This document shows positions 14,718 to 39,119 of a stretch of 64,000 bases of DNA, piece by piece; the first letter of the stretch is position 1, and the number at the start of each line of letters is the position of its first letter. The DNA is from a virus. The notes beneath the pieces are model-generated. The model had not been told where the DNA came from and ran no database searches. It worked only from the letters and a program-made list of their open reading frames with translations. The stretch covers positions 1-64,000 of the IMG/VR virus record IMGVR_UViG_3300028800_000086. One strand, written 5' to 3'. Position numbers and translations under genes: made by a program.

Positions 14718-16361
14718 TTACACGAAGTCGGTTGCGTTGATGTTGACGATAATGCTTTCGAACCCGCGCAGCGGCGGATAGGAAATCGCGAAGCCGGCGT
14801 ATCGCCCGATCTTGTAGTCGCCGGGATTTGCCGCGGTATAGGTCGTGAACGGGATAGCGTTGATCACGACGTTTCCGAGATATAGCCCCGCGTTGAAGTT
14901 GTTGATGAACGTCTGGCTATCGAGCGATGTGAGGACGACCGATCCCAACGCCAACCCGAAGGTGATCGCGCTCTGCGCCGTCGCCTGAAGGTTCTGTTGG
15001 AGACGATCGATGCCCTGCTGGTTGTAGTAAAGCGGGTTGATTGGATCGTTCGAACCGTTGATGACGGCGTTCGCCAAGTTCTCCGCGGCGTTGATCTGTA
15101 TCCAGTCGACCGAGTACCAGTAGTTGAACGGTCGCCCGTCCATCACGTGGCCCCAATAGAGAAGGTTCTGCTGGATGCCGCCTTCGTTTCCGACGCCGAC
15201 ATAGTTGACGTCGGCCGCCTTTAGCGTTGAAAGCAGAGCGCCGTTGCCGCGCGTCGGAAACGCCGTTACGCCGAACAGGAATGAGAAGCCGAGTTGGGGC
15301 ACCTTATTCGTGTTGCTGGGAGCGTAGTTCAACGTCACGAAGAAATCCGACGCGTTGGTGAATTCCGCGGCAGGAATTCCCGCCGAAGAATATAGGCTAG
15401 CGACAAGCGACGCGCCGCTAACGTACGATCCCGGATCGCTGGCGACGTTATAGATCAGCGTCGATCCCGTCGTTCCCGGTTGCGCTAGGAACGTTCCGTT
15501 GTATCCGGACGGCGTTCCTCCGCTGACCTTGAAGAACTGACCGGGCTTAACGGTGTGAGCATTTGTCGTCGTCGCGGTGACGACGCCGCCTGACCAGGTC
15601 GCGGCAGAGATCGTATCCGCCGGCCAAGCTCCATAGCGCGGCGCTTCGATCAAGGCGAGCACGCACTTCATTCCGCCATACAACGTATAGTTCGGAAGCG
15701 TTGTGGTGACGAAGAAGTATGTTTTCGCCGTCGTGCTTTCGAAGCCGGCGAGGAAGGTAAGGAACGACGGAACGCCGTCCCAATCGCGCGGCGTGAGATA
15801 GCTATAGAACAGGCCCGGGTTGGCCGTGATGAACGTGCCGAGCGCGGAAACGCCGGCCGCCGCTTCGCCCGCGCCGAGCTCAAGCGCGTAGACCGCTTGC
15901 TGCGCGCCTTGGGCGAAGAAGGTCGTGACCATCGATTGAAGTTCGGCAACGCCGCGAGCGGTGTACGTTCCCGCAACGGTCGCGGGCGACGTGCCCGGGT
16001 TCGTCGGGAGATAGTACGTGAACGCGGTACTGCTGGACGCCGTCGCGATGACGGTGCCGTTGTATCCTGCGGGCGTCGCGCCTTCGATATCCGTGGTGAA
16101 CTGTTCACCCACGGTGACGCCGTGCGCGGCTGACGCCGTTGCGGTCGCCAGGCCGCCGTAGGTGCTCGCCCAAGTAATCGACGTGAGCGCGAGCGGCGCG
16201 GGAAGAAGCGCCGTCAGGTCCGCGGGCTGCGTTAGCAACCCGTAATTGTAGGCACCGAGATTGGTGCCGCCTTGCGAGATCAACGCACCCATCTTCTGCA
16301 GCGCGTTCGGCGTCGGCGCTACAGACTGGGTGACGTTGACTGTGACGATCGGGTTGGTCAT
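14718..16361 (-). CDS. Tail sheath protein (DUF3383-like) with two inserted beta domains
   Basis: Protein of 547 residues. The start (L-I-S-Q-G-G-T-N-L-G-A-Y-N-Y-G) and the end (the tripeptide R-Y-A, then I-S-Y-P-P-L-R-G-F-E-S-I-I-V-N-I) fit sheath proteins of the DUF3383 type. Two copies of a small beta module interrupt it: residues ~58-128 (H-G-V-T-V-G, P-A-G-Y-N-G-T) and ~245-325 (W-S-G-G-V-V-T-A-T-T, P-S-G-Y-N-G-T-F). These probably decorate the sheath surface. The sheath contracts to drive the tube through the envelope. AAGGAGAG precedes the ATG. Confidence 0.82.
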   Translation of the reverse strand: MTNPIVTVNVTQSVAPTPNALQKMGALISQGGTNLGAYNYGLLTQPADLTALLPAPLALTSITWASTYGGLATATASAAHGVTVGEQFTTDIEGATPAGYNGTVIATASSSTAFTYYLPTNPGTSPATVAGTYTARGVAELQSMVTTFFAQGAQQAVYALELGAGEAAAGVSALGTFITANPGLFYSYLTPRDWDGVPSFLTFLAGFESTTAKTYFFVTTTLPNYTLYGGMKCVLALIEAPRYGAWPADTISAATWSGGVVTATTTNAHTVKPGQFFKVSGGTPSGYNGTFLAQPGTTGSTLIYNVASDPGSYVSGASLVASLYSSAGIPAAEFTNASDFFVTLNYAPSNTNKVPQLGFSFLFGVTAFPTRGNGALLSTLKAADVNYVGVGNEGGIQQNLLYWGHVMDGRPFNYWYSVDWIQINAAENLANAVINGSNDPINPLYYNQQGIDRLQQNLQATAQSAITFGLALGSVVLTSLDSQTFINNFNAGLYLGNVVINAIPFTTYTAANPGDYKIGRYAGFAISYPPLRGFESIIVNINATDFV

Positions 16362-20592: not shown

Positions 20593-20628
20593 TTCGTTTC
20601 TCCTTCGGGCTGTATGAGGTTTGTTGGC

Positions 20629-21645
20629 TTACTGGAACGCCATCGAGACGACGGTGACGGCCTGACCGCGCGGGCACCAGCCGGGGCTGAGACGCCATTC
20701 GCTCATCGAGTCAGTAGCGCCGCCCGGGAGCGGCGAAATGATTTCGACGGGCGCTGCGGTCGAGCAGTACGCAGTGACGCAAACGTCGCTGCCGGGCGTG
20801 ACCGTAGCGAAGATGTTGGTGTCGATGCGATCGCCCTTCGGCTTGCTGACCTGGGGCATATCGATGATGACCGCGTCGGTTCCGTTGGCTCCAGCGCCAA
20901 TCAGAGTGTCGTCATAGCACCAGTTGATCTTGTCGCCGTTCTCCTGCACGATGCTCTTCAGAGTTTCGGCGGTCGACGCGGTGCCTGCGCCTTCGCGCTG
21001 GAACTGCACCAACTGGACCACGTTGTACTCGAACATGCCGAGAATACGCTGCGGACCGAGAATGGTGAATTCCTTGCCGATGCCCAGTTGCAGCGTCCGG
21101 GTCTTAATGCCCAGGATGATCTGCGCGAGGTAGAACGCCATCTGACCGTTGTCGTAGGTGCTGGCCGTTGTGGCGCCGTTGCTATCGGGCGGAAGGTTCG
21201 TTTTCAGGATGTTCGGAGAATTCAGAATGCCTTCGCCGTTCTGCGGCTGCATTCCGAACAGGGTTGCGTCACGCGCGAGTTGGAAGTTGGCCTGGCGCAT
21301 TCCGAGCCGGTAGACTTCCGGCACCGAGAAGCCCCAACGGCCACCGGCCGCCACGTCGTGATGATCGTACTGCGAACGCGTCTTGAACAGATACGTCGGC
21401 GTGCTGATCATCGACGCCGCGATATCGACGCCGGGCAGTTCGTTCATCGAAGACTGGCCCGCGGCCATCTTGGTCCGCAGGTTCAGTTGCTTCATATAGA
21501 CCAGCAGATCATCTTCCGCCAGCCGAATACGAAGCTCGCCACCGGCAAGCGTGTCCATGAAGCCGGACGCCTGCGAGTACTGCAGCAGGATTTCCGGCTC
21601 GATGAACGACGGGTTGAGTGTGACGAATGCATTAGCCTGGATCAT
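20629..21645 (-). CDS. Major capsid protein
   Basis: Protein of 338 residues. It follows the protease/scaffold and cement genes in the order typical of tailed phages, and its size suits an HK97-fold capsid protein. Features: a helical N-terminus, an E-loop-like region (R-S-Q-Y-D-H-H-D-V-A-A-G-G), a spine-helix candidate (V-P-E-V-Y-R-L-G-M-R-Q-A-N-F-Q-L-A-R-D) and R-I-L-G-M-F. The closest family I can name is DUF2184-type capsid proteins. AGGACA precedes the ATG. Confidence 0.72.
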   Translation of the reverse strand: MIQANAFVTLNPSFIEPEILLQYSQASGFMDTLAGGELRIRLAEDDLLVYMKQLNLRTKMAAGQSSMNELPGVDIAASMISTPTYLFKTRSQYDHHDVAAGGRWGFSVPEVYRLGMRQANFQLARDATLFGMQPQNGEGILNSPNILKTNLPPDSNGATTASTYDNGQMAFYLAQIILGIKTRTLQLGIGKEFTILGPQRILGMFEYNVVQLVQFQREGAGTASTAETLKSIVQENGDKINWCYDDTLIGAGANGTDAVIIDMPQVSKPKGDRIDTNIFATVTPGSDVCVTAYCSTAAPVEIISPLPGGATDSMSEWRLSPGWCPRGQAVTVVSMAFQ

Positions 21646-21663
21646 TGTCCTATGTCCCCTTGC

Positions 21664-22563
21664 TCAGATTTGTATGACGGCGCAGCAGCCGTCGAAGTTG
21701 TAGGTGGCGAATCCGGTATCGACATCGTAGTCGACGGTCATGCAGTTGGTTTCCTGAATGTCCAGGACCTTGACCGGCAGGATCGTCGTCGAGCCGGTTC
21801 CGGAACCGGGAGTGACCGTGCCGCCCGTGATCGAGGAGATCGTCAGGCCGGTGGCGATCGCGTAAGTGATCGTATCGGCGGCCGGCTTGGTGAGAACGGT
21901 ATAGGTGCCGTTCGCCGTGGCCAGATCGCCGCCCGTTCCGGTCAGCGCCGAAACGACGATCGCGTCGCCCGGATCGACCGTGGTCAGCGCCGCCGTCGCC
22001 TTGAGCGTAACGATGCCTGTGCCGCTGTCGTACGACGACCCAGTCGCGTTGACCGTGTAAGCCGCCGCCGAGTAGGGCACCAGCAGCTGGTTGACGTAGT
22101 CCCAGCTGACGCTCGAACCGATCGGATCACCGATCAGATCAATCAACGCCGGATCGCACTTGACCGCGATGCGAGCGCGCGAGCCAAGCGCGTAACTCAT
22201 CACGGTGTTTCCGGAACCGGCGAGCGGCACCGGCGATTGCGGCGACGTGACCATGTTGTAGGCCTGGTCGAACACCGAGAAGCCGGCGAGCGCCTTCGAC
22301 CCGGTGGGTCCTGTGGCGCGGCCGACGATCACGCCGAGCGTCGGGTTGGGACCGCCCGAAGCGCCAGGAATGTTCTCATAGATGCCGACACCGCCCCACA
22401 TCGGAAGCGTTTCGGTATCGTCGAGCAGTCCCTGGCGCAGAGCGTAGCGCGTCGCCGGGTCGGGATAGGCAGTGCCCTGCCGAAGGCCGCGCGACTGCGT
22501 GTTGAAAAGTCCGTCGTTGCCAACGGTGACGACGAACGGATTGAAAGCGATTGACGCGGTCAT
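21664..22563 (-). CDS. Capsid cement/decoration protein with inserted beta domain
   Basis: Protein of 299 residues between scaffold and major capsid genes, the usual cement position. Start V-G-N-D-G-L-F-N-T-Q and an A-L-G-S-R-A-R-I-A-V-K-C-D strand are typical of structural cement proteins. Residues ~168-252 are an inserted module (G-T-G-I-V-T-L-K-A-T, G-D-A-I-V-V-S-A-L-T-G-T-G, N-G-T-Y-T-V, I-T-Y-A-I-A-T-G-L) nearly identical to part of the tail fibre at 25781-29575. TAATG overlap with the scaffold gene. Confidence 0.65.
   Translation of the reverse strand: MTASIAFNPFVVTVGNDGLFNTQSRGLRQGTAYPDPATRYALRQGLLDDTETLPMWGGVGIYENIPGASGGPNPTLGVIVGRATGPTGSKALAGFSVFDQAYNMVTSPQSPVPLAGSGNTVMSYALGSRARIAVKCDPALIDLIGDPIGSSVSWDYVNQLLVPYSAAAYTVNATGSSYDSGTGIVTLKATAALTTVDPGDAIVVSALTGTGGDLATANGTYTVLTKPAADTITYAIATGLTISSITGGTVTPGSGTGSTTILPVKVLDIQETNCMTVDYDVDTGFATYNFDGCCAVIQI
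21808..22062 (-). repeat. Beta-domain cassette, copy in the cement gene
   Basis: About 85 codons that align with 27630-27875 in the tail fibre gene. Nucleotide identity is high in places, with identical runs such as gtgccgcccgtgatcgag and atcgcgtaagtgatcgtatc. This suggests recent intragenomic exchange. Confidence 0.7.
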
Positions 22564-24617
22564 TAGCGGTCACCCCTGTTGCTGCGGTTGTCGGTCAGGA
22601 ACTTCGTCGCCGCCTGCTTGACGGGACCGGCGAAGCTGTCCATCCAGGCCGAAGGCCGGCCGATGAACTCGTTGCGGATATGACCTGAGTCCATCCGGAT
22701 CGTGCGCATGCGAAGTTCGCCCGGCTTGGTCGTGGCCGGGGAACGCGCCGTTGCTTCGGCTTCGTTCATGATCTGCTCCTCCACGGTCGCGAAGACCGCG
22801 TCGTTGGCGGCGACCACGGACAGGTCCTTGTCCTTCCAGGTCGTGCTGTATTGCTTCAGGTCGTTGATGAAGTGCCGGCGATAAGCCAGCAGGCTTTCGC
22901 CCTGGAGCGGAGCGCGAGCGCGCGAGCCGAGCGCCGAATAGACCGAGTCAGCGCGCGACTGAACCTTGCCGAACGCGTTGATGTCGGCGTCGGTCAGCGG
23001 GCGCGAAGCGGTTTCGAAGGCTTCGAGCTTCGCCTTCAACGCATTGAAGGCGTCGATCGACACACTGTCGGCCCGGCTATCAGCCTTCTTGTCCTTCTCG
23101 TCTTTGTCGGCATCCTTCTTCGCGTCGCTACCGGGCTGCGAACTGGTGGTGACGTTTCCGTCCTTTTTCGCGTCCTTCTTCTTCATGAAGTCGGGCATCT
23201 CGCCGTCCGCCTTCTTGTCCTTGTCCGGATCGTCGGCGTCCTTCTTGCCCTTGTCGGCCGCGGCCTTCATCTCCGCTTCCTCCTCGGCTTCGGCGTCCTT
23301 GCGCTTGTCCTTGGCGGATTTCTCGGCTTCCGACTTCTCTTTGCCGGCTTCCTCCTCATCCTTCGCCAGTTCCTTCTCCTCGGCATCGTGCCGGGAAATG
23401 TAAGTGGCCATCGCCTCGCCGTCCGCGCGACGCGAGAAAGCGAACGACGCGACGCGAGCGCTTGCGTCGGATCGCGTATTGCGCCGCTCGATGCTGTCCT
23501 GTCGAGCGGAAATGCTCTTCAGTTCCAGACCGAGCGCCTGGATGCCGGCCAGGATGGCCGACGTGTCCAGAAGCTCATTCTTGTTTTCGACCTTGTCGGC
23601 CATAGCTTCGTCTCCTCTGACTGTTGATACACCGATCGGTTCGCCGTCTTTGTCCCAAACGCCTTGCCAGCAGACGGCGAGATGGTCTAGCAGGCTAGGC
23701 TTACCCTCAATGAAGAAACGCTTTCCGTCCTTGAGCGTGCCCGAAGCGTTCACTTCAGGATCGTTCCAGACTACCGATGGACTTGTCGATAACTGGTTTT
23801 CCGTCATCATCTGCGCGGCCGGCTTATCGAGGATGCGGGCGATCGCCCACACATCGCCTTCCGTCTCGCTGGTCATCTCGACCCACGCGAACATTAACGC
23901 GCCAATGACTCGTTTCTTGAATTCGGTCGTCGTCAGCATCTCGCCTTTAGGATGATCTAGGATCACCGGAACGCCCGCGCACCGTTGGCAGAATTCGTCG
24001 TTCAGATAGATAGACGGATCACGCCAAACGACTTCTTCCTCTTGGATGACCTTTCCGGCCGCGTCGATCTTCTCGCTGCGAACGGCGCGCCCGGTCCCGG
24101 TCACGCGCATCTTAAACAACGTCAAATTCTCGTACTGCTGGGGAGACACTAGCTCCCCTGCAGCTATGGCCTTAGCGATGCCTAATTCGTCCATCGATAG
24201 CCGCGCTAAGGCGACGGCGCAGCCCGGGTGCAACGGTTGCGGCGGATCGGTAGGAGGAGCCCAAGCGAACGCCGTATGCTCCGGAGCGCCTTCCGGACCA
24301 AGCTCCGGCACAAATTCCTCCACGTCTCGAACGATGAACGTCGAGAAGTCAACGCCAGTTGGCGCCACGTCACCCGGGGGAGATTGGGGCGTGGCGCCAA
24401 CACGACGGGTCCAGGGTGTGAGTGAACCCGCCGCAAACTTCTTTCCGGCTTCTTCGACGGTTTCGCGGATAGCAGCATCCATGGCGCTTTCGTCGCCGTC
24501 GATCCTGCCGCCCGGAAAACACCAAGCTCCAGGCGCGTCGCCGCCCGGGCCGCGTTTCAAAAAAAGAACATTGTTCTTTTTTGAAATGGCGAGGATGCCT
24601 GCGGCGCGAATAATCAT
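22563..24617 (-). CDS. NUDIX hydrolase - prohead protease (DUF2213) - scaffold fusion
   Basis: Protein of 684 residues in three parts. (1) Residues ~1-135: NUDIX domain; the box is intact as G(37)-x5-E(43)-x7-R-E-x-x-E-E-x-G (Glu55, Glu56). (2) Residues ~160-335: DUF2213-type protease with D-H-P (His222), S-T-S-P-S (Ser279 or 281) and L-L-D-H-L (His312), consistent with an S78-like Ser/His active site. (3) Residues ~340-520: very charged Lys/Glu/Asp coiled-coil scaffold, then a globular end. Protease and scaffold fused in one gene is common; the NUDIX part is unusual. Next genes are cement and capsid. Confidence 0.8.
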   Translation of the reverse strand: MIIRAAGILAISKKNNVLFLKRGPGGDAPGAWCFPGGRIDGDESAMDAAIRETVEEAGKKFAAGSLTPWTRRVGATPQSPPGDVAPTGVDFSTFIVRDVEEFVPELGPEGAPEHTAFAWAPPTDPPQPLHPGCAVALARLSMDELGIAKAIAAGELVSPQQYENLTLFKMRVTGTGRAVRSEKIDAAGKVIQEEEVVWRDPSIYLNDEFCQRCAGVPVILDHPKGEMLTTTEFKKRVIGALMFAWVEMTSETEGDVWAIARILDKPAAQMMTENQLSTSPSVVWNDPEVNASGTLKDGKRFFIEGKPSLLDHLAVCWQGVWDKDGEPIGVSTVRGDEAMADKVENKNELLDTSAILAGIQALGLELKSISARQDSIERRNTRSDASARVASFAFSRRADGEAMATYISRHDAEEKELAKDEEEAGKEKSEAEKSAKDKRKDAEAEEEAEMKAAADKGKKDADDPDKDKKADGEMPDFMKKKDAKKDGNVTTSSQPGSDAKKDADKDEKDKKADSRADSVSIDAFNALKAKLEAFETASRPLTDADINAFGKVQSRADSVYSALGSRARAPLQGESLLAYRRHFINDLKQYSTTWKDKDLSVVAANDAVFATVEEQIMNEAEATARSPATTKPGELRMRTIRMDSGHIRNEFIGRPSAWMDSFAGPVKQAATKFLTDNRSNRGDR

Positions 24618-25198
24618 CGACCGGCCCTGACCGCAGCGTCGATCTCAGGCTGCGTGTCGCCTGATTGGATAATCTTGCAACGGTTTTTCGGAATACCGCG
24701 GCTGTCGCATTCGTCTTCCATTTCCTGCTTGACCACGTTGCGGTCGTAATCACCGAAGTGAATTTGGCCGTCGACTAGCAGCGTGTAATACTTTCGCGCA
24801 TCCGCCGCCGAGACGCGCTTGCCGAGCTTGTTGACTTCCTCGACCAGTGAGTCCATTGCGGATAGGCAATCTTCAGCGGTCGCTTCATGCGGTCCCGGTC
24901 CCTTTCCCTGCAGCGGCTCGCCCGGAAACGCGTCTCCGCGCTTGCGTTTCGACAACGACTTTTCGTTTTGAAAGGCGGCAACGGCTTCTTCAACATAACG
25001 CTTCGATGCGCCTTCTTGATCGAGCGCGCGACGCAATGCTTGTTCGCTTCCCGTCCAAGTCGAACCGAGATCAGCCGCGGGCATTGACAAGGCATCACCA
25101 CGCTCCTCCTTAAGCGCGATCGCAACGGCCTGTTTCTGCGGACGACCGCTGTCGATCAACTCCGGGATATCATGCGAAGGCTTTCCGGTAAGGGGCAT
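24614..25198 (-). CDS. Capsid-block protein with KQAVAIAL motif
   Basis: Protein of 194 residues (ATG 25198; a GTG one codon earlier overlaps the previous TAG). The N-terminus holds S-G-R-P-Q-K-Q-A-V-A-I-A-L-K-E-E, a motif shared by many short phage and bacterial proteins (DUF6496-like). The middle is helical with a K-R-K-R-G-D segment. The C-terminal domain (K-Y-Y-T-L-L-V-D-G-Q-I-H-F-G-D) is compact. ATGA overlap with the scaffold fusion. Role unknown. Confidence 0.5.
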   Translation of the reverse strand: MPLTGKPSHDIPELIDSGRPQKQAVAIALKEERGDALSMPAADLGSTWTGSEQALRRALDQEGASKRYVEEAVAAFQNEKSLSKRKRGDAFPGEPLQGKGPGPHEATAEDCLSAMDSLVEEVNKLGKRVSAADARKYYTLLVDGQIHFGDYDRNVVKQEMEDECDSRGIPKNRCKIIQSGDTQPEIDAAVRAGR

Positions 25199-25200
25199 CA

Positions 25201-25278
25201 CTACCTCGCGAAGATTATCGTGAAGAAAAGAAGCAGCCAGGGCGCTATGGCGATCGTAATCAGGAAGCCGCGGATCAT
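25201..25278 (-). CDS. 25-residue membrane peptide
   Basis: ATG at 25278 overlaps the previous stop (ATGA) and the TAG at 25201-25203 touches the next start. The peptide is a single hydrophobic helix after M-I-R-G (F-L-I-T-I-A-I-A-P-W-L-L-L-F-F-T-I-I-F). Coupling on both sides is the main support. Role unknown. Confidence 0.4.
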   Translation of the reverse strand: MIRGFLITIAIAPWLLLFFTIIFAR

Positions 25279-25781
25279 CCGCGTATGCCCATCGGGAAAA
25301 GCGTGCCGCCGGTTAGGTTACCGCCCGCGCTCAACTGAATGCGGAAGCCATCGTAGGCGACTTGCGCTGGGACATCGCCTAGGTAGCCGTTAGCTAGGGT
25401 TGCGCTTGTTGCGTTGTTCTTTCGACCGCCCTCGATGTCGGCGTTTACCGGGACAAGGTTGTTGAAGTTGTTCAACGTAACCAACCAACCCGTCAAGGTA
25501 GCGGCTGGGACGACCGCCGATCCGCCAATGCTCCAGGCTGTCGTTATGCCGCCGTTTGTCGATCCGTTGCGATTGTATTGGGCGGTAATCCAGGTGTTGG
25601 AAACCAACTCGTGAAGCTGCAACGTATAAAGCTGGTCCGCACCATCGTGGGTAAAGTCGTAACCGAACAAGCTGATGGCCTGAAACGCCGACAGGTTAAG
25701 CATGGAGATGTTTGTCGTCGGCGCCGAAACAGTAATCGGATTGCCGTCGGGCGTAATGATCGGCCCAGCCTTGATTTGCAT
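25275..25781 (-). CDS. Fibre-tip-like protein, paralogue of upstream fibre C-terminus
   Basis: Protein of 168 residues; the ATG at 25781 overlaps the fibre stop (TGATG). It aligns with the last ~125 residues of the fibre just upstream: shared Y-N-R-x-G, L-x-N-F-N, G-G-x-K-N, G-Y-x-G-D/N and S-A-G-N spacing. It may be an extra tip subunit, a host-range module or a fibre chaperone. Asn/Thr/Gly-rich beta composition supports a surface structural protein. Confidence 0.6.
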   Translation of the reverse strand: MQIKAGPIITPDGNPITVSAPTTNISMLNLSAFQAISLFGYDFTHDGADQLYTLQLHELVSNTWITAQYNRNGSTNGGITTAWSIGGSAVVPAATLTGWLVTLNNFNNLVPVNADIEGGRKNNATSATLANGYLGDVPAQVAYDGFRIQLSAGGNLTGGTLFPMGIRG

Positions 25782-28700
25782 CAGATATCTCCCAACGGCA
25801 AACCCTGCACCGAGATTAAACCAGCAATGGCGTTGCCGGCACTCGGCAGGATGCAGAAAGCATTGAACACCGTATTGCCGTCGTAATATCCCGGATACAT
25901 AATGTTGTTTGGATCGTTTTTCGTGCCGCCCTTCAACCGAACTGGCGTGCGCCAAGGTTGATTGAAGTTCAACACTACTGCTTCGAAACCTATGGATACG
26001 TTGCCGGCAACGCTGCCCGAAAACAGGAGTTTGCTGGTACCTGACGTCCCACCAATCCGATTGTAGTTCGAGGTAGCAAACGTAACGCCGTTATCGGCGG
26101 AAAATTCAATACCCCAATTTTGGTTAGACAGACTGTCGTGCATCAGGCCCGTGCCCGAAATGATGAGCGTCGAGCACCAATCGAGATTACCGAAGATAAT
26201 TTTTGTCATCGGGAACGGCACGGCGTAAGCGACCTTGCCGGGCGTGATAAGCGGCCCTATTCCGCGCCCGTTGATTATGTGCGGAGCCTGAACGATATCC
26301 GCGATGACCTCGCGCGGCGCGGGCGAAATGCCGGTCGCGTCCCATATCGTGTTTAGCCCCATGTCGCGAACGACTTGCGTTACCGGCACGACAGGATCGA
26401 CGACCAGCCCGGAAATTGAAGCGAAGCTCGACAGTCCTACCGCGTCGCCGTCCGAATTGCCGAGATCGAAGGCGTACTGAAAGCGACTGTCCGGCGTGAT
26501 ATTGTTGTTGAACAACACCTTCGGGCTTATGTAGGTGTTGCCGTAGGTAGATTGATTCTGGCCGTCAGTGCGAGCGTCCATGCTGTCGCCGCCAAACGGA
26601 TCGAGGTTCGTCGCGCCCGGCGAGCCATCGGCGTTGATCGTGAAGCTGAACTGATCAACGATGCCGGTAATGCTGTACGGTCCGCCAATGTTGGGCGTAC
26701 GGATAACGATGCCATTGTTGGTGTTGATGACGTGCGACAGCCTGACGTTCGCGCCGATATGGAAGCCCGCTGGCAATCCTTCCGAAGCACTGACGAGAAC
26801 CTGAATGCCGCCGAGTTGTTGCGGCTCCAGGCCGTCGACGTTAAGCGAGACGGCGTCCTGTTGCTGGGCACCGTTATCGACAAAGCCCTTGATAATCGGG
26901 TTGATCGCGAAGTTGCCAGAGAGAGTGCCGTAACGACCTTGGTTCAGGTAGCAGACATCGAAACCCGTAACGGTATTCCCGGCGACGTAGAACCCGGTCG
27001 CCTCCGCGCCGATGTTGATTGCCTTTCCTCCTACTCGATTGAGCGAGGTAAACGTATTGTTAACGACGCGCCCACCAATCGACAAAAGCGTCGCGCCGCC
27101 ACGGCACTTCGCCGTCGAGTCAGCAAGCGTGCCGATCCATGCGGGCGAGGTATCAACGAACGAACAACCACTGATGACGCAGTACTCGCCGCCGACCTGC
27201 GCATTGGATAGGCCGGAACCTACGCGCTGATAGTAACCGTTGCGTTTGTTGGCCCAACCTTCCGCCGCGCAGTTGGTCGCGCGGAAGTTAAGACCGCGCA
27301 TGTCGATGATACGGTCGCCCACCGATATCCCGGCGTTGAACACCGAGACGGCGGAACCGCCGCCGTTGCCACTTGCGTTGGCCGTCTGCCCATTTAGATC
27401 GAACTTCAACTGGCCGTCTTCGTCGGTCACGCCCAGGATGTTGAACGATCCGTTGAACGTACAACCGTTGAAGCCGGGCGTGCCGATAAAGCTAATGCGT
27501 TCGCCCGCGCCCGCGTTAAGCAGCGGCTTCTGGTAGGTCGGGCTGACCGGAGTCAGGACGTTGATGTTTATCGAAGCGTAGGTCTTGCCTGAGTAGGTGC
27601 GGATAGGATTGGTGCCGTTCGTTCCGGTCGTCGTGCCGCCCGTGATCGAGTTGATGGTCAGGCCCGTCGCTATCGCGTAAGTGATCGTATCAATCCCGGG
27701 CTTCGACGCTACGGTAAAGGTGCCGTCCGCTGACGCCAGATCGCTGCCCGTTCCGGTAAGCGCCGATACGACGATAACGTCGCCCGTCGCGAAAGTATTC
27801 GTTGCGGTCGTCTTCAAGGTAACGACGCCGGTCGTGCTGTTATAGCTGGAGCCGGTCGACTTAACCGCGAACACCGCGTTAACCAGCGGGCAATAGTAGT
27901 CCGTGCCCGTGCTGCGCGCCCCGTTCCGGTTATTCCACGACAGGTTCGTGCCCTGCCCACCCAACGCCCAATACTTGAACGTCATGTCGGTGTTGTAGAT
28001 CGTCGTGTTCGATGACAGGCGGTTCTTAACGTCCTCGCAATCGCCGTCCGTTCCCCAATGGCCGCCGCCGCTCCAATAGATCATATTCTTGGAGTTGTAG
28101 CCGCCTAGGCTCGCGCCGTAACCCGGCGAGCCGAAATTGTAAACGTCGATCAGCTTGACCAGCGACAACGGGACGTTGGTGTCGGTATCTCCTCCAAGAT
28201 CGATGTTGTGGAAACCGTGCTGATAACCGGAGCGACTGCGGTTGCCGTGGAGGCACATTCCGCGAATAGTGACGGATACGACGTTGGGGTAGTTTGGCGA
28301 AGCCCCCGCTGCACCGTTCGAAATCATGTGAGCGACGCCGTTCGACCCGTCCGGGCTTGCGCCCGTCTGATCGACCTTGTCCGCTAGGAATATCCAACTA
28401 TTGGAACTTCCGCCGCCGTCGAACTCGACGCAACCCGGGACGCGAAGGATGGCTGTCTTCTGGTACTTGCCGCCCGGGGGCAACAGCATGACCGTCGTGC
28501 CGCCCGCCGTAAAGCCGTAAGAAAGCAGTCGATTGATTTCCGCCGCCGCGTCGAAGATCGTCCCGATCTGGTACGCGTGACCGATGACGAATATCGATCC
28601 GTCGTCGACCCAAGGACAATCGTTCAGAACCCAAGTAAACGGGTCAGGTCCCGCCGAGACGTTCGACCAGTCCCCGTCCGCTCGATGAGCACCGTACGTC

Positions 28701-29575
28701 GTCCCGTTGATGCCCAAGTCACATCGTACGGCCAAATTTGTCGGCGCAATCTTGGCCTTTTGTCGGAAGCGAACCGCCGTCAATCCACCGACGTTGAGGA
28801 TGTCGCGAACCTGATACGACTGCGTCGAGACGATTGGTAGCGTCTGCTTATAACTGCCATCGGCGTAGTAGGCGACCGCCGCACCGACCGCCGCGCCGGT
28901 GAAGTTGGCCAGCGCGCCCCACAGGTACGACGGGTTTACCGCGCTTTCGGTATCGTCATGGGCTACGTCGGGCGGCGCAGGCGCAAGACCCTGTAACAAC
29001 AGGATCGAGCCATTCCACTTTAGTTCCGCAATGGCTCCCGTGATCAGTTCGTTGCCGATAAGGGGCGAGCCGTCGCGCCGCCTTATCGGTACGTCAACAC
29101 CCCATCCGTTGAACGTCGAAGGTCCGGAGTTGTCTTCCGGTATCTTAAAAGAGACGGTCAGTCCCGGTTCTGGCGCAACGATCGTCGGGTTGTAGACCGC
29201 CGTGTATTCGTTCGCGTTTGTCGCCGTCGCCTCGGCATAACTGTAGGCCTGGTTCTGCGCCTCTACCGTTTGCGGGAAGCGCGCCATCGTGCCAGCGGTG
29301 ACCAGCTGTTCGAAGCCCGATCCTTCAGGCCAGTTCTGCGCGATCGTTCCTTCCTGGGCGCGAACGATAGTCAGCGTGTCGCCGTCGCGCGCCGTCACCA
29401 GGACGATTTCATTAAGCGGACCGAGCGCCAACGTGCCGTAAAATTCCGAACTTACTCCCGGTTGCGGAAACAACGCGCCTTGGCCCAGGCTCAAAATGAG
29501 CGTGGTACCGTCCGTCTCCAGAAGATCGGCGGTTTCCGCGACGGCGTTGTTGGCGAATTGAAGAAGCTTCGTCAT
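25781..29575 (-). CDS. Large tail fibre/tailspike with parallel beta-helix
   Basis: Protein of 1264 residues; the ATG at 29575 overlaps the previous stop (ATGA). Residues 1-200 are the virion anchor shared with the fibre at 4425-5924. Around residues 340-420 a beta-helix begins (G-F-T-A-G-G-T-T-V-M-L-L-P-P-G-G, then I-R-G-M-C-L-H-G-N), typical of depolymerase-type tailspikes. Around 570-650 lies the beta cassette shared with the cement protein. The last ~125 residues resemble the next gene product. Likely recognises or digests a surface polysaccharide. Confidence 0.78.
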   Translation of the reverse strand: MTKLLQFANNAVAETADLLETDGTTLILSLGQGALFPQPGVSSEFYGTLALGPLNEIVLVTARDGDTLTIVRAQEGTIAQNWPEGSGFEQLVTAGTMARFPQTVEAQNQAYSYAEATATNANEYTAVYNPTIVAPEPGLTVSFKIPEDNSGPSTFNGWGVDVPIRRRDGSPLIGNELITGAIAELKWNGSILLLQGLAPAPPDVAHDDTESAVNPSYLWGALANFTGAAVGAAVAYYADGSYKQTLPIVSTQSYQVRDILNVGGLTAVRFRQKAKIAPTNLAVRCDLGINGTTYGAHRADGDWSNVSAGPDPFTWVLNDCPWVDDGSIFVIGHAYQIGTIFDAAAEINRLLSYGFTAGGTTVMLLPPGGKYQKTAILRVPGCVEFDGGGSSNSWIFLADKVDQTGASPDGSNGVAHMISNGAAGASPNYPNVVSVTIRGMCLHGNRSRSGYQHGFHNIDLGGDTDTNVPLSLVKLIDVYNFGSPGYGASLGGYNSKNMIYWSGGGHWGTDGDCEDVKNRLSSNTTIYNTDMTFKYWALGGQGTNLSWNNRNGARSTGTDYYCPLVNAVFAVKSTGSSYNSTTGVVTLKTTATNTFATGDVIVVSALTGTGSDLASADGTFTVASKPGIDTITYAIATGLTINSITGGTTTGTNGTNPIRTYSGKTYASININVLTPVSPTYQKPLLNAGAGERISFIGTPGFNGCTFNGSFNILGVTDEDGQLKFDLNGQTANASGNGGGSAVSVFNAGISVGDRIIDMRGLNFRATNCAAEGWANKRNGYYQRVGSGLSNAQVGGEYCVISGCSFVDTSPAWIGTLADSTAKCRGGATLLSIGGRVVNNTFTSLNRVGGKAINIGAEATGFYVAGNTVTGFDVCYLNQGRYGTLSGNFAINPIIKGFVDNGAQQQDAVSLNVDGLEPQQLGGIQVLVSASEGLPAGFHIGANVRLSHVINTNNGIVIRTPNIGGPYSITGIVDQFSFTINADGSPGATNLDPFGGDSMDARTDGQNQSTYGNTYISPKVLFNNNITPDSRFQYAFDLGNSDGDAVGLSSFASISGLVVDPVVPVTQVVRDMGLNTIWDATGISPAPREVIADIVQAPHIINGRGIGPLITPGKVAYAVPFPMTKIIFGNLDWCSTLIISGTGLMHDSLSNQNWGIEFSADNGVTFATSNYNRIGGTSGTSKLLFSGSVAGNVSIGFEAVVLNFNQPWRTPVRLKGGTKNDPNNIMYPGYYDGNTVFNAFCILPSAGNAIAGLISVQGLPLGDI
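27630..27875 (-). repeat. Beta-domain cassette, copy in the tail fibre gene
   Basis: Second copy of the cassette at 21808-22062. The encoded protein keeps S-T-G-S-S-Y-N-S, G-V-V-T-L-K-T-T, V-I-V-V-S-A-L-T-G-T-G and T-Y-A-I-A-T-G-L-T-I. Confidence 0.7.
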
Positions 29576-31392
29576 CCGCGACATCCGACGCGAAAGTTGC
29601 CTGCCGCGAAGGTGCTGGCGCTGGGCGCGAACCGGATAGCATTCACCTGCGCTGCGGGGGCGAACATGACCGTGCGCGGTCCAGCGGTCGAGACGTTTGG
29701 GGTCGAATTGGGATTGCCCGTCGTGCTTTCGCCGCCGAATGCTCTTACATATCCGCCGCGCAATCCGGTGATCCACTCGGTCAGGTAAACGGCCGACGTC
29801 GTCAGCGCCGAAGCCGTTACGTTGATGCGCGAAGCGCTGGTGTAAGTACTCCCGTTGTTGGTCGAAAAGAGGATGTTCAGATCGGCAGTGCTGGTCGTGA
29901 TCGTGACGCCATCGACGTAAATCAGCACGTCTTCGCAAGACAAACTGGTGAAGGAAACCGTCGAACCTGACGCTGCAGAACTCGACCAGACATAGCTCGC
30001 TTGGTTCCCGGTCAGACCAGCAATGGGCAGGCCGGTCGCGTTGGTAAGCGTGAGCGAAGAAGGAGTGCCGCCCGCCCCGTTGAACAGCACCGGAGCGCCA
30101 GCCGATCCGACGTTGACGCCGAGCGCCGTGGCGATGCCAGTGCCCAGGCCCGTAATCGAGCCAACCGCGGGCGTTACCGTGACATTGGCCGCGGCTGTGA
30201 TCAACCCCTTGGCGTTGACCGTGAACGTGCTCGCCTGAGTCGCGGAGCCGAATGAACCTACATTGCTATTGACCGTCGCCAGCGTCGTGCCAAGAGCGCC
30301 CGCGCTGGTCGTAACGTCGCCCGTCAACGCGGGAAACTGTCCCGCTTGTAGTGTGCCCGTCAATCCGGTCGTCGGAATTCCGGTAAGATTGGTGCCTATG
30401 CCGGACGACGGCGTGCCGAGCGCGCCCCCATTCACTACGAACGACCCCGCCGTGCCGACGTTGACCGCAAGCGCCGTAGCGACGCCTGTTCCGAAACCCG
30501 TAACGCCGGAAAGCGGAACCGCGGCAGCAGTAATCGAGCTATTGCAGCCGAACCCAGTATTGGTCGTCCAATTTAAGGCGCTCCCGGCGACGCTACAGGA
30601 CGCCATCGCCAACGCGGTCGGGGATGCCGCGCCGGAAGTAGCATTACCAACGACCGTATTAGCGGCTTCGGTAGCCAATCCTGAAAGCGGCAGTGAAGAA
30701 CCGTTCGTCAACGCAATTGACGACGGCGTGCCGCCCGCGCCATCGAAAATAACCGGAGCGCCCGCCACACCGACGTTAGTCGCGAGCGCGGTGGCAACGC
30801 CCGTACCGAACCCGCTGATGCCCGCAATAGGAAGACTGTTGCCGTTGGTCAAGTTGACCGCAGACGGCGTTCCCAAATTCGGCGTCGTTGTACTCTTGAG
30901 CAACTTGCCGGTCGTTCCGTCGAACGTCGCGACGAGGTTATCGGTCGATGACGCCGGGCCGACTACGTCGCCTGAGCTTGATGGAATGCTGTGACAGAGA
31001 AAGCCTGTGCCCGAAGTCCAGCCCAGCGCGTCGAGCGTGCCGCTGCAGGAGGGAACCGCGAGCGCTTGAGGCGTCGTGCTGCCCGCCGTCCCATTACCCA
31101 TCAACGTGTTCGCGGCGATCGACGCCATCGATGAGAGATTAAGATTGCCGGCGAGGACGACCGCGCCCGTTGTCGGCGTGTTGGGAGTAAATCCTGTCGA
31201 GCCGCCCGACCACGTAGTAACCGCGCCCGCAAGGCAAGGCGCGTCGGTCAACGTACTACTGCCAATCTTGAGGCAATGACCGTTTGTACCGCCGATGACC
31301 GCTGTGCCGTTAACGTAAAGAGCGTTTTGCGCGTCGACCGGAAGTCCGATCAGGCACGCGATGACGATGAAAAGGGTGGAAAAGAAACGCAT
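29572..31392 (-). CDS. Repetitive tail fibre protein with signal-peptide-like start
   Basis: Protein of 606 residues. It starts with a classical export signal (R-F-F-S-T-L-F-I-V-I-A-C-L-I-G-L-P-V-D-A). The body carries about five imperfect repeats built on G-T-G-V-A-T-A-L-A-x-N-V-G-x-A-G and G-T-P-S-S-x-x-L-T-N, known from many phage fibre proteins. The C-terminal ~150 residues are a non-repetitive beta domain ending F-R-V-G-C-R-G. A signal peptide on a virion fibre is odd; the hydrophobic start could instead aid assembly. Confidence 0.65.
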   Translation of the reverse strand: MRFFSTLFIVIACLIGLPVDAQNALYVNGTAVIGGTNGHCLKIGSSTLTDAPCLAGAVTTWSGGSTGFTPNTPTTGAVVLAGNLNLSSMASIAANTLMGNGTAGSTTPQALAVPSCSGTLDALGWTSGTGFLCHSIPSSSGDVVGPASSTDNLVATFDGTTGKLLKSTTTPNLGTPSAVNLTNGNSLPIAGISGFGTGVATALATNVGVAGAPVIFDGAGGTPSSIALTNGSSLPLSGLATEAANTVVGNATSGAASPTALAMASCSVAGSALNWTTNTGFGCNSSITAAAVPLSGVTGFGTGVATALAVNVGTAGSFVVNGGALGTPSSGIGTNLTGIPTTGLTGTLQAGQFPALTGDVTTSAGALGTTLATVNSNVGSFGSATQASTFTVNAKGLITAAANVTVTPAVGSITGLGTGIATALGVNVGSAGAPVLFNGAGGTPSSLTLTNATGLPIAGLTGNQASYVWSSSAASGSTVSFTSLSCEDVLIYVDGVTITTSTADLNILFSTNNGSTYTSASRINVTASALTTSAVYLTEWITGLRGGYVRAFGGESTTGNPNSTPNVSTAGPRTVMFAPAAQVNAIRFAPSASTFAAGNFRVGCRG

Positions 31393-31395
31393 CGA

Positions 31396-32712
31396 TCAGG
31401 CCGGTGTAAACGTGACGGTCTGAACGGGCGACGTATCGGTCGGGATGACGAAACCGCCCGTCACGGTCTGCGCCGTCAAGTCTGTTTCGCCGCTGACGCG
31501 AACAATTGCGATGTCATAGACGCCGTCAGGAACGTCAATGGTGCAGATGTCTTCGGCGCGCGTCGCCTGCGTCAGATCGGTCGAGCGAATGTAGCTGCTG
31601 AGATCGCCTGCCTCGATCTGGATGCCGTAAAGCAGGCCGTCCCAGCTGAAGTTAGGAGCAAAGTTCGCCTTGTACCCGTCGTTCGAAAAGAACGGGGGAT
31701 CAGTCGACGGAGGAGGGTTCCAACCCGTGGCGGGAATTCCCATTGTAACGAGGACTTGCGGCGTGGGCATCGTCGCACTGACAACCAAACCTTCGATAAC
31801 GCAGCGAAACCACCCTGGGCTGCTTGGATTGCCGGGAGGATTGTAAGGGCCTGAGATGGTAGAACTGTCGAACCCCGCTTGGCTGGTCGAGCCGCTATCC
31901 GCCGTTGTGCCCGCCTGAACGTCGAAGATCGCCGTTAAGCCCACGCCGTCATCGTTATTGAAGTTGACGATTAGGGCCGGATAGCCGCCGCTGCTGTGGT
32001 ATTTGCCGAAGATGCTGAGCGTGTAGTTGATATCTCTTTCCGGCGTGACGGGATTGGGAGGATCGATGGCTGATCCAAACATTTGATAAACGCCATAGAC
32101 AGCAGGATCGGAAGCGAACGTGTAGATTTGTGTTGCGCTGTCCGTGTTGTCCGGTCCTTGGGGGTTGTCAGAGGCAGGGAAACCCACTGATGTTCCGCTC
32201 AAGGCTTGCCAGCCTCGGTTCGTCGCGCCACTGGCAGCGAAATCCTGCGTCGATACCGCAATGTTGGTGCGCGCGGGCTCAACGAGAAGGCCCAAGATAT
32301 CGTGGGACACCGGATCGCAGGTAAATCTGGCTGTGTCGTTCGATGCAAATTGCAACACGGCGCTGTTGTCGACGTAGCTTCCTTCGGAAGCGCGCGTCAG
32401 CCCGGCCCCTCCGGGCAATGTGCCGAGAGTGAAATCGAACGTAAGGACGTGAGGATAAGAGGCGCTGAAAAAACCGACCGCGTCGCCGGGCGCACTCGTT
32501 ACGTTACGAACGCAAAGGGGCAGAACGGTCGACGGAGCGACGTTACTAAACGTCACAGGGCTATCGTCGCCCGCCAAGGTGACGACAAACTCGCCGCCCG
32601 CACCCGACCAGATATAACGCGTCAGGCGTTTCAGATCGCCGGTCGGGAGCGTCAGCCCGTGTGTCGCGGGACCGGGTCCTACTGTCGCGGCGGGAGGAAT
32701 AAAACCGGGCAT
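31396..32712 (-). CDS. Tail protein with lectin-like carbohydrate-binding region
   Basis: Protein of 438 residues; the ATG at 32712 follows the previous stop by one base. The first ~85 residues repeat the fold of the adjacent 86-residue gene (S/G-P-G-P-A-x-H-G, L-T-R-x-I, L-A-G-D-D-x-P-V-T). Then comes L-T-R-A-S-E-G-S-Y-V-D, A-R-F and G-L-L-V-E-P-A-R-T-N, a pattern common in tail proteins with a concanavalin-like binding module. The remainder is beta-rich. Probably a receptor-binding or fibre-connecting protein. Confidence 0.62.
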   Translation of the reverse strand: MPGFIPPAATVGPGPATHGLTLPTGDLKRLTRYIWSGAGGEFVVTLAGDDSPVTFSNVAPSTVLPLCVRNVTSAPGDAVGFFSASYPHVLTFDFTLGTLPGGAGLTRASEGSYVDNSAVLQFASNDTARFTCDPVSHDILGLLVEPARTNIAVSTQDFAASGATNRGWQALSGTSVGFPASDNPQGPDNTDSATQIYTFASDPAVYGVYQMFGSAIDPPNPVTPERDINYTLSIFGKYHSSGGYPALIVNFNNDDGVGLTAIFDVQAGTTADSGSTSQAGFDSSTISGPYNPPGNPSSPGWFRCVIEGLVVSATMPTPQVLVTMGIPATGWNPPPSTDPPFFSNDGYKANFAPNFSWDGLLYGIQIEAGDLSSYIRSTDLTQATRAEDICTIDVPDGVYDIAIVRVSGETDLTAQTVTGGFVIPTDTSPVQTVTFTPA

Positions 32713-32713
32713 C

Positions 32714-32974
32714 TTACCAAAGCCCCACAAGAGCACTCGCGCTCGACGCCGTCATGACGCGCCGCGCACAAACTTCAATGAAGTTTCCCTGTAGCGCAGG
32801 AAGCGTGACAGGGTCGTCGTCGCCCGCAAGGATGACGACGAGATTGCCTGACGAACCGACGTAGATCATCCGCGTCAGATGCGGCAAGTCATTAGCGTCA
32901 TCCGGCGTGATAGAGAAGCCGTGCGCGGCAGGACCAGGCGATACCGATGCAGCGGGAGGCTTGAAATACGTCAT
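32714..32974 (-). CDS. Stand-alone copy of the fibre N-terminal domain
   Basis: Protein of 86 residues homologous to residues 1-85 of the next protein (31396-32712). Shared: S-P-G-P-A-A-H-G, L-T-R-M-I, V-V-I-L-A-G-D-D-D-P-V-T and C-A-R-R-V. It may be a small virion adaptor on which fibres sit, or a truncated duplicate. It overlaps its upstream neighbour by ATGA. Confidence 0.5.
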   Translation of the reverse strand: MTYFKPPAASVSPGPAAHGFSITPDDANDLPHLTRMIYVGSSGNLVVILAGDDDPVTLPALQGNFIEVCARRVMTASSASALVGLW

Positions 32975-33516: not shown

Positions 33517-34332
33517 TTATGCTCTCCTCTTCATGGCTTCGCGACCCGCCGCGGTAAGCATTTCCTTCGGCAGGTCGTCGATCGAATAGATGTATTGATA
33601 GTAGCACCGGCAATAGACTTCTTCGCCGGGCTGAGTAATCTGATCCGTGTACTGGTGACCGTCGAGCTTGATCAGTCCCTTCTGCATTGCCCAGTTATCG
33701 CGAACCACGTACAGGTCCTTGTCGCGCTCCTTGTGGTCTTCGCGGTAATCGTAATTCGCCTGCCGCCAGTGACTGTGCCAGATAGCGGCGATCGCCCCGC
33801 CGCCCACCGCGACAACGTCGTTGAGCGTCGAGGTAAGCTTGATGCCCTGATCGGTCATCACCCGGCGTTCCCGGAACGACAATCCCGATAGCGACTTGCG
33901 GATGTCGACCTTCGCCGCCTTCTTGTCCGTCGCCTCGCTGCCTCCGGGCGGCACTGAAGTCGCCCAACCGTAGAACCGGCGAACCATCGCCGTCATCTCC
34001 TGATCGCGATTGAGCCGAATCAGTCCGATGCTCGCCATGATGCGGCGGTCTAGCTCCGCTTTCAATTCCGGGCGAAGGCGGTCGATCGTATAGCGATTGA
34101 CTCCCTTGTGCATCGAGACGATACCGCCGCGCTCGATCAGCCGCCGATACAAGGCCGTCAACCCCTCGCGCAACATCTTCTCCATCCGATCTCGCGGCAT
34201 CATGTCGGCTTCGGCCGCCCGGCGCAAACGCTCGCTCCACATCTCGACGCGTTCGTTGCTGTCGAAACCGTTTTCAGCCAAGTCGTCGATCGCGGCTTGC
34301 AGCACGGCGTAGAAGGAAGCTGTGTTGGGCAT
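33517..34332 (-). CDS. Minor head protein, MuF-like
   Basis: Protein of 271 residues downstream of the portal gene. The helical N-terminal half ends in S-L-S-G-L-S-F-R-E-R-R. The C-terminal part has the MuF/head morphogenesis pattern: Y-R-E-D-H-K-E-R-D-K-D-L-Y-V-V-R-D-N-W-A, then E-E-V-Y-C-R-C-Y-Y-Q-Y. Such proteins sit at the portal vertex and can be ejected with DNA. Start after TAG of the previous gene. Confidence 0.72.
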   Translation of the reverse strand: MPNTASFYAVLQAAIDDLAENGFDSNERVEMWSERLRRAAEADMMPRDRMEKMLREGLTALYRRLIERGGIVSMHKGVNRYTIDRLRPELKAELDRRIMASIGLIRLNRDQEMTAMVRRFYGWATSVPPGGSEATDKKAAKVDIRKSLSGLSFRERRVMTDQGIKLTSTLNDVVAVGGGAIAAIWHSHWRQANYDYREDHKERDKDLYVVRDNWAMQKGLIKLDGHQYTDQITQPGEEVYCRCYYQYIYSIDDLPKEMLTAAGREAMKRRA

Positions 34333-35133: not shown

Positions 35134-35332
35134 CGCGCGCCATCCTATGCATCGTCGCTACGTGATCGAAGAACGCATCCAGCGCATCCTTCGCCTTGAC
35201 GCGCTCTATCTCGCTGCGCGCCCATTGACCGGAAACGCACGCCGCCTGAAAGCCGACTAAGGCGCTATCGAGCATCGAGCGCGCCGTGTGGGCGCTGCGA
35301 ATAACGGCGATCGCGTCGGTGGCGAAGGTCAC
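35126..35332 (-). CDS. Small helical protein after portal
   Basis: Protein of 68 residues. GTG start at 35332 overlaps the portal stop (TAGTG). Helical with S-M-L-D-S-A-L-V-G-F-Q-A-A and F-F-D-H-V-A-T-M. No family recognised. Confidence 0.45.
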   Translation of the reverse strand: MTFATDAIAVIRSAHTARSMLDSALVGFQAACVSGQWARSEIERVKAKDALDAFFDHVATMHRMARDG

Positions 35333-36906
35333 TACGCGCGCTTCCTTCCGTCGATCACCCGCAGCCGCCGATCCTCCTTGATGCCGCGGAGACGGGAGAC
35401 GGCGGCTTGTAGCGCCTCAATGCCCTTCTCGACGCTGTCGGCCTTCGACAACTTGAACTTGTCCGCGCCCGTCTCCGGATCGTCGCTTTCGTCGCCGCCC
35501 ATCGCGCCTAGCTCCTGGCGATCCTTGTCGGCCTGGGCGTTCTCGCGCATCAAGTCGTAATCGAAGTGCAGCGGCGAGCCGAACAGCAGGCGCATCTCGT
35601 TGATGTTGTCCGCGACGAACTGCGCGAGCGTGACTAGGTTCTCCGGGTCCATCAGCGGCGTGTAGACCTGAAGCACGGCGATCAACGCCCTTAGCTTCAC
35701 GTCGTCGACCTTGACCTTTTCGCTGTCCGGCTCCTCAAGCAGGTTCGGCCATTCGGCCTTGAAGCTGTTAGACCAACGATAGAACGCCGCGTCAAAATCG
35801 ATCTTGCCGTACTCGGCCTTGAACTCGGTCTTGATCGTCTCATAGAATTCCGGTGTCCAGGCGAGATGTTGGACGATCGTTGTGAAGTATTCGTAAAGCG
35901 GCTCCATCCATTCGCGGATATCCGCGACGAACCGCGCCTGCGCCTTCGCGTCCTCAGTGCCTTCCCCGAAACCCTCCACAAAGCTTTCTTCGGTCAGCAT
36001 CTGCGCCGGCATTGACGCGCCGCTCGCGATGTTCTCGATGATATCGTCGCGCGCCTGCTTGAACGGCGCTTCAAGGTTCTGCAGGTTGATGCTTTCGATC
36101 TCCTCGCCGTCAGTGCCGATCGAAATGACGTTGCCGACGACCGCTTCCTTGACGACGTTCCGCTTCATCCCGAACATCGTGATCATCGCCTCAGTGATCA
36201 TCGCCCCGGCCTGCTTGATCTTCGCGACCAGCGTGCCGGCCTTAATCGATACCATATCGTCCGTCCGCATTGTCTGGATAAACGACTTGAGCGGATAGAG
36301 CGGACGCTGATAGACCGATCGGCCGGTGAAGCCGAACGTTGACGGCGTGTAACTGATGTAGATCGGGAATTCGTTGATCAGTATGCAGGTCCTTGACCGA
36401 TGGAACGTCTTACCGTTGACGACGATCTCCTGGGCGTGCTGGAAGTCCATCGCTAGCGGGTCCTGGTTCAGCACCAGCGAACCCGCGGTGTTCAACGGAT
36501 CGTAGACGTTGAAGGCGTACTTCTTCTTCCAAAGCTCCTTGAGCTTGAGCGCGGTATTCGGCTGTTCCCCTTCGACCAGCGTGCCGATCGACGCGATGCC
36601 GTAGACGCGAGCCTGGGAGGCAACGCGGAAAATGTGCTTGTCTGCGCCGATTAGCTTCCAGGTCTTGACGAACTGCTCCTTGACGCGATCGCCGGGCGAT
36701 TCAGGGATGGTAATCTTGCGAGGCTGGCTCTGGGCGATCTTCAACGGCTTCTCGGCCATCTTCGCGCCGAGCGGATGATACAGATAGAGCAGCTTGCAGA
36801 TTTCGTAGCTCGGGTCATCGCCCGGCTGGATATCGGCCGCGCCGATGATCGTGGTGAAGGCGTTACCGATCGATGAAGCGCCGACAAGGTTGAGCGTTGC
36901 GGTCAT
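35332..36906 (-). CDS. Portal protein (DUF1073/PF06381 type)
   Basis: Protein of 524 residues two genes after the large terminase. Matches the DUF1073 portal class: a start with Y-H-P-L-G-A-K-M near residue 43, A-R-V-Y-G-I-A-S-I-G in the clip/stem part, and I-A-S-G-A-S-M-P-A-Q-M-L-T in the C-terminal third. The tail is Glu/Asp-rich then basic. The dodecameric portal is the DNA gate of the head. ATGA overlap with the preceding small gene. Confidence 0.85.
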   Translation of the reverse strand: MTATLNLVGASSIGNAFTTIIGAADIQPGDDPSYEICKLLYLYHPLGAKMAEKPLKIAQSQPRKITIPESPGDRVKEQFVKTWKLIGADKHIFRVASQARVYGIASIGTLVEGEQPNTALKLKELWKKKYAFNVYDPLNTAGSLVLNQDPLAMDFQHAQEIVVNGKTFHRSRTCILINEFPIYISYTPSTFGFTGRSVYQRPLYPLKSFIQTMRTDDMVSIKAGTLVAKIKQAGAMITEAMITMFGMKRNVVKEAVVGNVISIGTDGEEIESINLQNLEAPFKQARDDIIENIASGASMPAQMLTEESFVEGFGEGTEDAKAQARFVADIREWMEPLYEYFTTIVQHLAWTPEFYETIKTEFKAEYGKIDFDAAFYRWSNSFKAEWPNLLEEPDSEKVKVDDVKLRALIAVLQVYTPLMDPENLVTLAQFVADNINEMRLLFGSPLHFDYDLMRENAQADKDRQELGAMGGDESDDPETGADKFKLSKADSVEKGIEALQAAVSRLRGIKEDRRLRVIDGRKRA

Positions 36907-37106: not shown

Positions 37107-37297
37107 CACGCCTCACCCATAACCGGCTCGTTGAACATCGCGTTAGCTCCCATCACCATCGCCATATCCTCCAACGGTACGTGCTCGCAAAAGCCGAGCG
37201 ATCGCCGGTCACGCAGCTTCAGGCGATCGACCATCGACGCCAGCATCTCCGGGCTGATGTAAAAGCGGAAGCCGTTGCTATACGTCGCGACGCGCAT
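37106..37297 (-). CDS. Small protein after large terminase
   Basis: Protein of 63 residues, TAATG overlap with the terminase gene. Features: S-N-G-F-R-F-Y-I-S-P-E-M-L and a Met-rich end (D-M-A-M-V-M-G-A-N-A-M). No family recognised. Confidence 0.45.
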   Translation of the reverse strand: MRVATYSNGFRFYISPEMLASMVDRLKLRDRRSLGFCEHVPLEDMAMVMGANAMFNEPVMGEA

Positions 37298-38910: not shown

Positions 38911-39119
38911 TGGACGACCTTGCTTTTCGGAACGTCGAGACGATAACCGTCGCTCATCATGTCCTTTACGATCCGGCGACAACGCGCCTTCCCCACGTCG
39001 ACCTGCTTCGCGATCTGATCGTATGAAACGCCGTACGTTCTCAACACGAATATCTTCACGTCGCGATCGGACGGCAACGGCTTGCCGCGAGGAATGTTGA
39101 ATATAAGTCGATCAGTCAT
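38907..39119 (-). CDS. Small HTH protein, terminase-associated
   Basis: Protein of 70 residues between putative small and large terminase genes, overlapping both. A helix-turn-helix is visible: Y-G-V-S-Y-D-Q-I-A-K-Q-V-D-V-G-K-A-R-C. It might contribute DNA recognition in packaging or be a regulator. No family name is safe. Confidence 0.5.
   Translation of the reverse strand: MTDRLIFNIPRGKPLPSDRDVKIFVLRTYGVSYDQIAKQVDVGKARCRRIVKDMMSDGYRLDVPKSKVVH

Follow-up and report, generated by a model that had tools for sequence, protein, structure and literature searches.

A phage head-maturation protease and scaffold with a predicted catalytically competent NUDIX passenger domain

Introduction

Nudix enzymes joined to head proteins have been described in phages before. 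Iyer et al. (2022, PMC9503650) reported Nudix domains in phage late/head genes that are fused to MuF, to portal proteins and to a capsid-processing serine peptidase, proposed that these enzymes are packaged and injected, and placed the head-fused Nudix domains in a T4 NudE-like clade; the substrates of T4 NudE are ADP-ribose, FAD and Ap3A (PMC9503650). An architecture that combines DUF2213 with NUDIX was already displayed in PMC8770471. Independent NUDIX fusions in head modules also occur on the portal protein (Bcep1) and on MuF (Pam4), and Bm1 carries a free NUDIX gene near its head protease. In the Burkholderia phages Bcep1, Bcep781 and BcepNY3, a NUDIX domain related to the one studied here likewise sits on a head protein, but at the C terminus of the portal and not on the protease.

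Here, we analyze a gene within a stretch of 64,000 nucleotides (positions 1 to 64,000 of the IMG/VR virus record IMGVR_UViG_3300028800_000086; hereafter “the window”). Like the fusions of Iyer et al., it joins a Nudix domain to a head-processing serine peptidase and lies in a head module. With the DUF2213 (PF09979) proteases, for example Bcep1 gp15, and with T4 gp21, its product shares the fold, the His-Ser-His residues, a C-terminal scaffold and a gene position ahead of the capsid gene; it differs from them by an additional N-terminal NUDIX domain and by a sequence too distant for a direct PF09979 match. The fusion of NUDIX to a capsid peptidase is thus already published (2022), and the window protein adds a diverged new member of this kind. 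New here, and not found in the publications consulted, is the comparative evidence that the NUDIX domain is under selection, can be dispensed with, and moves about the head region.

Results

A fusion gene among the head genes of a phage with a contractile tail

The fusion gene occupies exactly 22563 to 24617 as a real open reading frame of 684 codons (684 amino acids), as the original prediction had it, to which we add that it is read on the minus strand (24617 to 22563), as are all genes and domains of the window given below unless stated otherwise. PHROG_6216, a family of unknown function, spans the whole protein (residues 6-671, E 2.9e-122). The gene is tightly embedded among its neighbors: its start shares an ATGA with the stop of a translationally coupled upstream ORF of 195 amino acids (24614 to 25201; PHROG_2423 for its first 34 residues), and its own stop shares a TAATG with the start of the next head gene (PHROG_6268, 21664 to 22563). 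The second gene downstream encodes the major capsid protein (20629 to 21645; PHROG_6671, 2.5e-125; PHROG_264 “major head protein,” 9.4e-9), whose counterpart in phage PdC23 is annotated as such. Genes for the terminase large subunit (37297 to 38982; PHROG_38, 6.9e-55), the portal protein (35332 to 36906; PHROG_146, 3.4e-49), a head morphogenesis protein at the MuF position (33517 to 34332; PHROG_324, 1.4e-23) and the tail sheath (14718 to 16361; PHROG_205, 5.6e-25) all lie on the same strand, so that the region is the head module of a phage whose tail is contractile. No further NUDIX gene was found in the IMG/VR record of this phage (69,872 bases). A 646-codon open frame runs antisense to the capsid gene and the neighboring head gene (20614 to 22554, plus strand) and is most likely a composition shadow of the GC-rich sequence.

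An intact NUDIX domain under selection

The NUDIX domain forms the N terminus of the protein (residues 1-138; 24204 to 24617), where residues 3-131 match Pfam PF00293 (E 5e-14; 52.9 bits against a cut-off of 21.1). Its NUDIX box (residues 37-59, GRIDGDESAMDAAIRETVEEAGK; 24441 to 24509) is intact, as originally predicted, reading G37-x5-E43-x7-R51-E52-x2-E55-E56-x-G58. Against the consensus GX5EX7REUXEEXGU, the R-E-x-x-E-E core and the upstream Glu are complete, and the hydrophobic (U) positions are taken by T53 and K59. Residues 1-345 were modeled with AlphaFold on 50 homologues (pLDDT 91, pTM 0.88), and the NUDIX domain of the model superposes on MutT-type structures with Z up to 18.2 over 128 residues (rmsd 2.1).

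Loss of the catalytic glutamates in relatives had been named beforehand as an observation that would speak against the predicted enzyme, and we looked for it. Among 97 nonredundant NUDIX domains, separate ones included, 95 retain E52, E55 and E56, which rank among the most conserved positions of the domain; the two exceptions are a degenerate copy that has lost its box (L101) and one with E56K (L098). Both of these are prophage copies, and a third prophage copy carries a frameshift in the protease (L105). Pairwise dN/dS of the NUDIX domain ranged from 0.01 to 0.24, similar to that of the protease domain. Retention of the glutamates and these low ratios disfavor the suggestion, also made originally, that the domain is a structural relic, and we predict from the sequence that the window NUDIX is a catalytically competent hydrolase. 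That it is instead the inactive remnant of a past fusion is barely credible: degenerate copies such as L101 and L098 do exist, but the window copy is intact.

As to the type of enzyme, the profiles lean slightly toward MutT/NudG-type hydrolases. The NCBIfam MutT profile matched 48 of 50 family members and that of NudE 15 of 50, with no score near its cut-off and no equivalog cut-off reached by any member. Scored in turn against the NUDIX family profile, E. coli MutT obtained 48 bits and T4 NudE 39 bits, both being sequences on long branches. The window family hence scores nearer to MutT-type profiles while reaching no subfamily, which differs from the T4 NudE-like placement of Iyer et al. A NUDIX tree was dropped as a means of subfamily assignment, given its too few columns and the very long branches of T4 NudE and MutT.

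Protease and scaffold

The central domain (residues 139-335; 23613 to 24203) showed no direct Pfam DUF2213 (PF09979) match at E < 1 in the window protein. A relative, L092, matched PF09979 just short of the cut-off (E 2.3e-4; 21.6 bits against 22.0), a weak 450-amino-acid match in an Erwinia genome (G005; 23.7 bits against 22.0) is probably locus L100, and another relative, L005, matched PHROG “head maturation protease” families at 1.6e-7. Profile-profile comparison with DUF2213 yielded 97% probability with three catalytic residues aligned, and no homologue whose protease domain is complete lacks the corresponding candidate triad, H222, S277 and H312. When modeled alone (pLDDT 93.8), the domain found its best solved match in gp21, the prohead protease of T4 (Z 10.3), followed by the herpesvirus proteases (assemblins) at Z of about 5-7.7. 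These data identify residues 139-335 as a DUF2213-related prohead protease with the T4 gp21/herpes assemblin fold, for which proteolysis is predicted.

The scaffold follows as a charged, hydrophobic-poor segment with KADS/RADS motifs (residues 336-521; 23055 to 23612), within which residues 400-521 consist of 31% D/E, 24% K/R and 9% hydrophobic residues, and ends in a C-terminal region (residues 522-684; 22566 to 23054) with blocks conserved in the homologue alignment. The proposed composition of the protein, a NUDIX hydrolase ahead of a DUF2213-type protease and a charged scaffold, is thereby borne out, and the structure prediction suggested along with it returned the MutT-type and T4 gp21-like folds described above.

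A candidate cleavage motif confined to the scaffold

The short motif [KR][AM]DS occurs 91 times downstream of the protease domain in 88 nonredundant fused proteins and not once in their NUDIX domains, junctions or proteases. In the scaffold, RMDS was observed 31 times against 0.3 expected from composition and KADS 49 times against 2.5, where part of the excess reflects shared ancestry. We regard [KR][AM]DS, as a lead from sequence statistics, as a candidate for the motif that this protease family recognizes. If it marks cleavage, NUDIX and protease would stay joined while the scaffold is removed. The original prediction had scaffold cleavage set the NUDIX domain free in many copies; since the candidate motif is absent from the NUDIX-protease junction, such release finds no support, and a free packaged NUDIX would require another, unmapped site.

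Fused, split, relocated and NUDIX-less relatives

Queried as a single sequence, the window protein returned no relatives from IMG/VR, and alignment-based queries returned hundreds. In the phage collection, cultured relatives of identical architecture comprise PdC23, Chronis, RothC/RothD, five Yersinia phages and Shewanella QDWS. PdC23 (Pantoea), Chronis and RothD (Klebsiella), vB_YenM_29.18 (Yersinia) and QDWS share the full-length architecture at 37-39% identity, and their genes follow the same order as far as the major capsid protein. The cultured relatives carry the NUDIX-protease directly beside the MuF-position gene, unlike the window phage, where ~7.5 kb of tail-type genes (25275 to 32736) separate the two. 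Publications on the Yersinia phages and on KlebPhaCol yielded no virion proteomics for these relatives.

The homologues in these five phages are labeled only as hypothetical protein, glycosyl transferase or NUDIX hydrolase; across homologues of the fusion gene more widely, we met glycosyl transferase (Yersinia phages), TolA protein (Rac-SA53, pPE4), NUDIX hydrolase and hypothetical protein, and these names are unreliable. OK094664 (Shewanella phage QDWS) and OP650936 (Hujiaoplasma phage zrk29-1) both have 47,902 bases and identical matches with hosts from different phyla, which makes one of the two host assignments doubtful. PP818812 (Actinobacillus pPE4) and KU052037 (Escherichia Rac-SA53) have near-equal head-module coordinates, nearly identical proteases and different listed hosts.

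We sampled 260 homologous protease loci, taking the best 80 of each of three IMG/VR scans and one GTDB scan plus the phage collection. The fusion is not unique: NUDIX was fused in 155 of them and was a separate ORF in 16; the remaining 89 had none within ~3.5 kb upstream, proportions that, given these best-80 lists and one scan that began with a NUDIX-less query, are not population frequencies. The last class is defined by that distance and thus includes L158, yet its record has a NUDIX-topoisomerase ORF elsewhere. On the protease tree, the NUDIX states require eight changes. The majority of NUDIX-less loci form one enterobacterial clade that is nested beside fused relatives; no NUDIX was found in 22 whole records of this clade, and Rac-SA53 and pPE4, both complete phages, encode the protease-scaffold while lacking NUDIX genome-wide. 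The NUDIX-less homologues begin exactly at the protease boundary. Four proteases without a fused NUDIX (L143, L087, L158, L165) still start with an LHPG-type NUDIX tail, a trace suggesting, on a tree that is unrooted, that an ancestral fusion was lost or split.

Several relatives encode NUDIX as a separate but coupled cistron, through ATGA overlaps (L058, L165) or a stop followed by ATG (TAA/TAG-ATG; L077, L079, L083). We considered whether such separate genes were frameshift artefacts and rejected this, as L077, L079 and L083 are distinct sequences with common junctions and L058 and L165 have the ATGA overlaps; L105 alone looks like a real frameshift.

NUDIX also changes partners. It is found N-terminal to a topoisomerase IB in L143 (295-1665) and in L283 (1772-3829, the genome of L158), in ORFs located near MuF-position and protease genes, and these NUDIX domains belong to the same lineage as the protease-fused ones, or a close one. 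Upstream of the NUDIX-less protease of L087, an ORF (1027-1932) joins a more diverged NUDIX to a domain that weakly matches ATLF-type metallopeptidases (E 0.0012). As judged from these arrangements, passenger enzymes seem to have a slot at the N terminus of the protease and in the genes immediately upstream.

Other N-terminal additions were seen as well. L071, L072 and L082 have an extra region ahead of the NUDIX-protease (ORF from ~3161; 3467 in L082), which in L071 contains a DUF6321 domain (PF19846, 9e-22). In L132 and L133 (ORF 3195-4142), a cysteine-rich segment (SHCSICKHF...WCKLFEK) replaces NUDIX in front of the same protease, possibly a metal- or Fe-S-binding passenger.

Discussion

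We favor, with a probability of about 0.6 for the explanation as a whole, the reading that the window gene encodes the head-maturation protease and scaffold of a contractile-tailed phage and carries a predicted catalytically competent N-terminal NUDIX passenger. The comparison of relatives, which lose, split or relocate the NUDIX domain and keep protease and scaffold, supports its behavior as an optional passenger enzyme, and on the same genomic evidence it is dispensable for head assembly as such: as a NUDIX-less clade exists and NUDIX changes partners, it would not be part of the capsid machine. The fusion would take the enzyme into the assembling prohead along with the scaffold core, and some of it may be retained there and leave together with the DNA on ejection, whereupon it could cleave a metabolite of the NDP-X type. 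The likeliest benefit would be that defence signals derived from nucleotides, or depletion products, are countered early, with the clean-up of damaged nucleotides as the runner-up. As NUDIX is a separate polypeptide in several relatives, neither a covalent link to the scaffold nor packaging through that link is obligatory.

It is possible, if rather unlikely, that NUDIX works late in infection within the host cytoplasm, in nucleotide-pool sanitation or counter-defence, with the fusion serving as convenient co-expression and little or nothing being packaged. The coupling of separate NUDIX genes by ATGA or TAA/TAG-ATG junctions would fit such a role, as would profiles closest to MutT/NudG-type enzymes; however, the repeated placement in head modules and the fusions to portal, MuF and protease exceed what co-expression needs. 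If NUDIX instead served head assembly structurally, in scaffold folding, core nucleation or protease control with catalysis secondary, one could understand why most sampled relatives have the fusion and why domain order is constant, but an entire clade builds heads without NUDIX, the catalytic glutamates are among its best-kept positions, and it also occurs on unrelated partners, which makes this reading improbable.

A further idea starts from immune sensing. According to PMC11312562 and work cited there, staphylococcal Thoeris TIR sensors are activated by the major capsid protein and produce 1''-3' gcADPR, and a CBASS cyclase is activated by a prohead protease. NUDIX might reside on the prohead protease because bacterial immune sensors bind at capsid assembly, and, tethered to proheads, it might destroy pyrophosphate-containing ADP-ribose signals at the source, giving a self-shielding capsid assembly machine; we hold this to be highly improbable.

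Under the favored reading of a passenger enzyme on the protease-scaffold, the published prediction that enzymes hitch-hike into phage heads gains a well-sampled family, in which the fused, split, relocated and NUDIX-less forms of one protease-scaffold provide natural controls. With RothD and vB_YenM_29.18, cultured temperate relatives are at hand that make this prediction testable.
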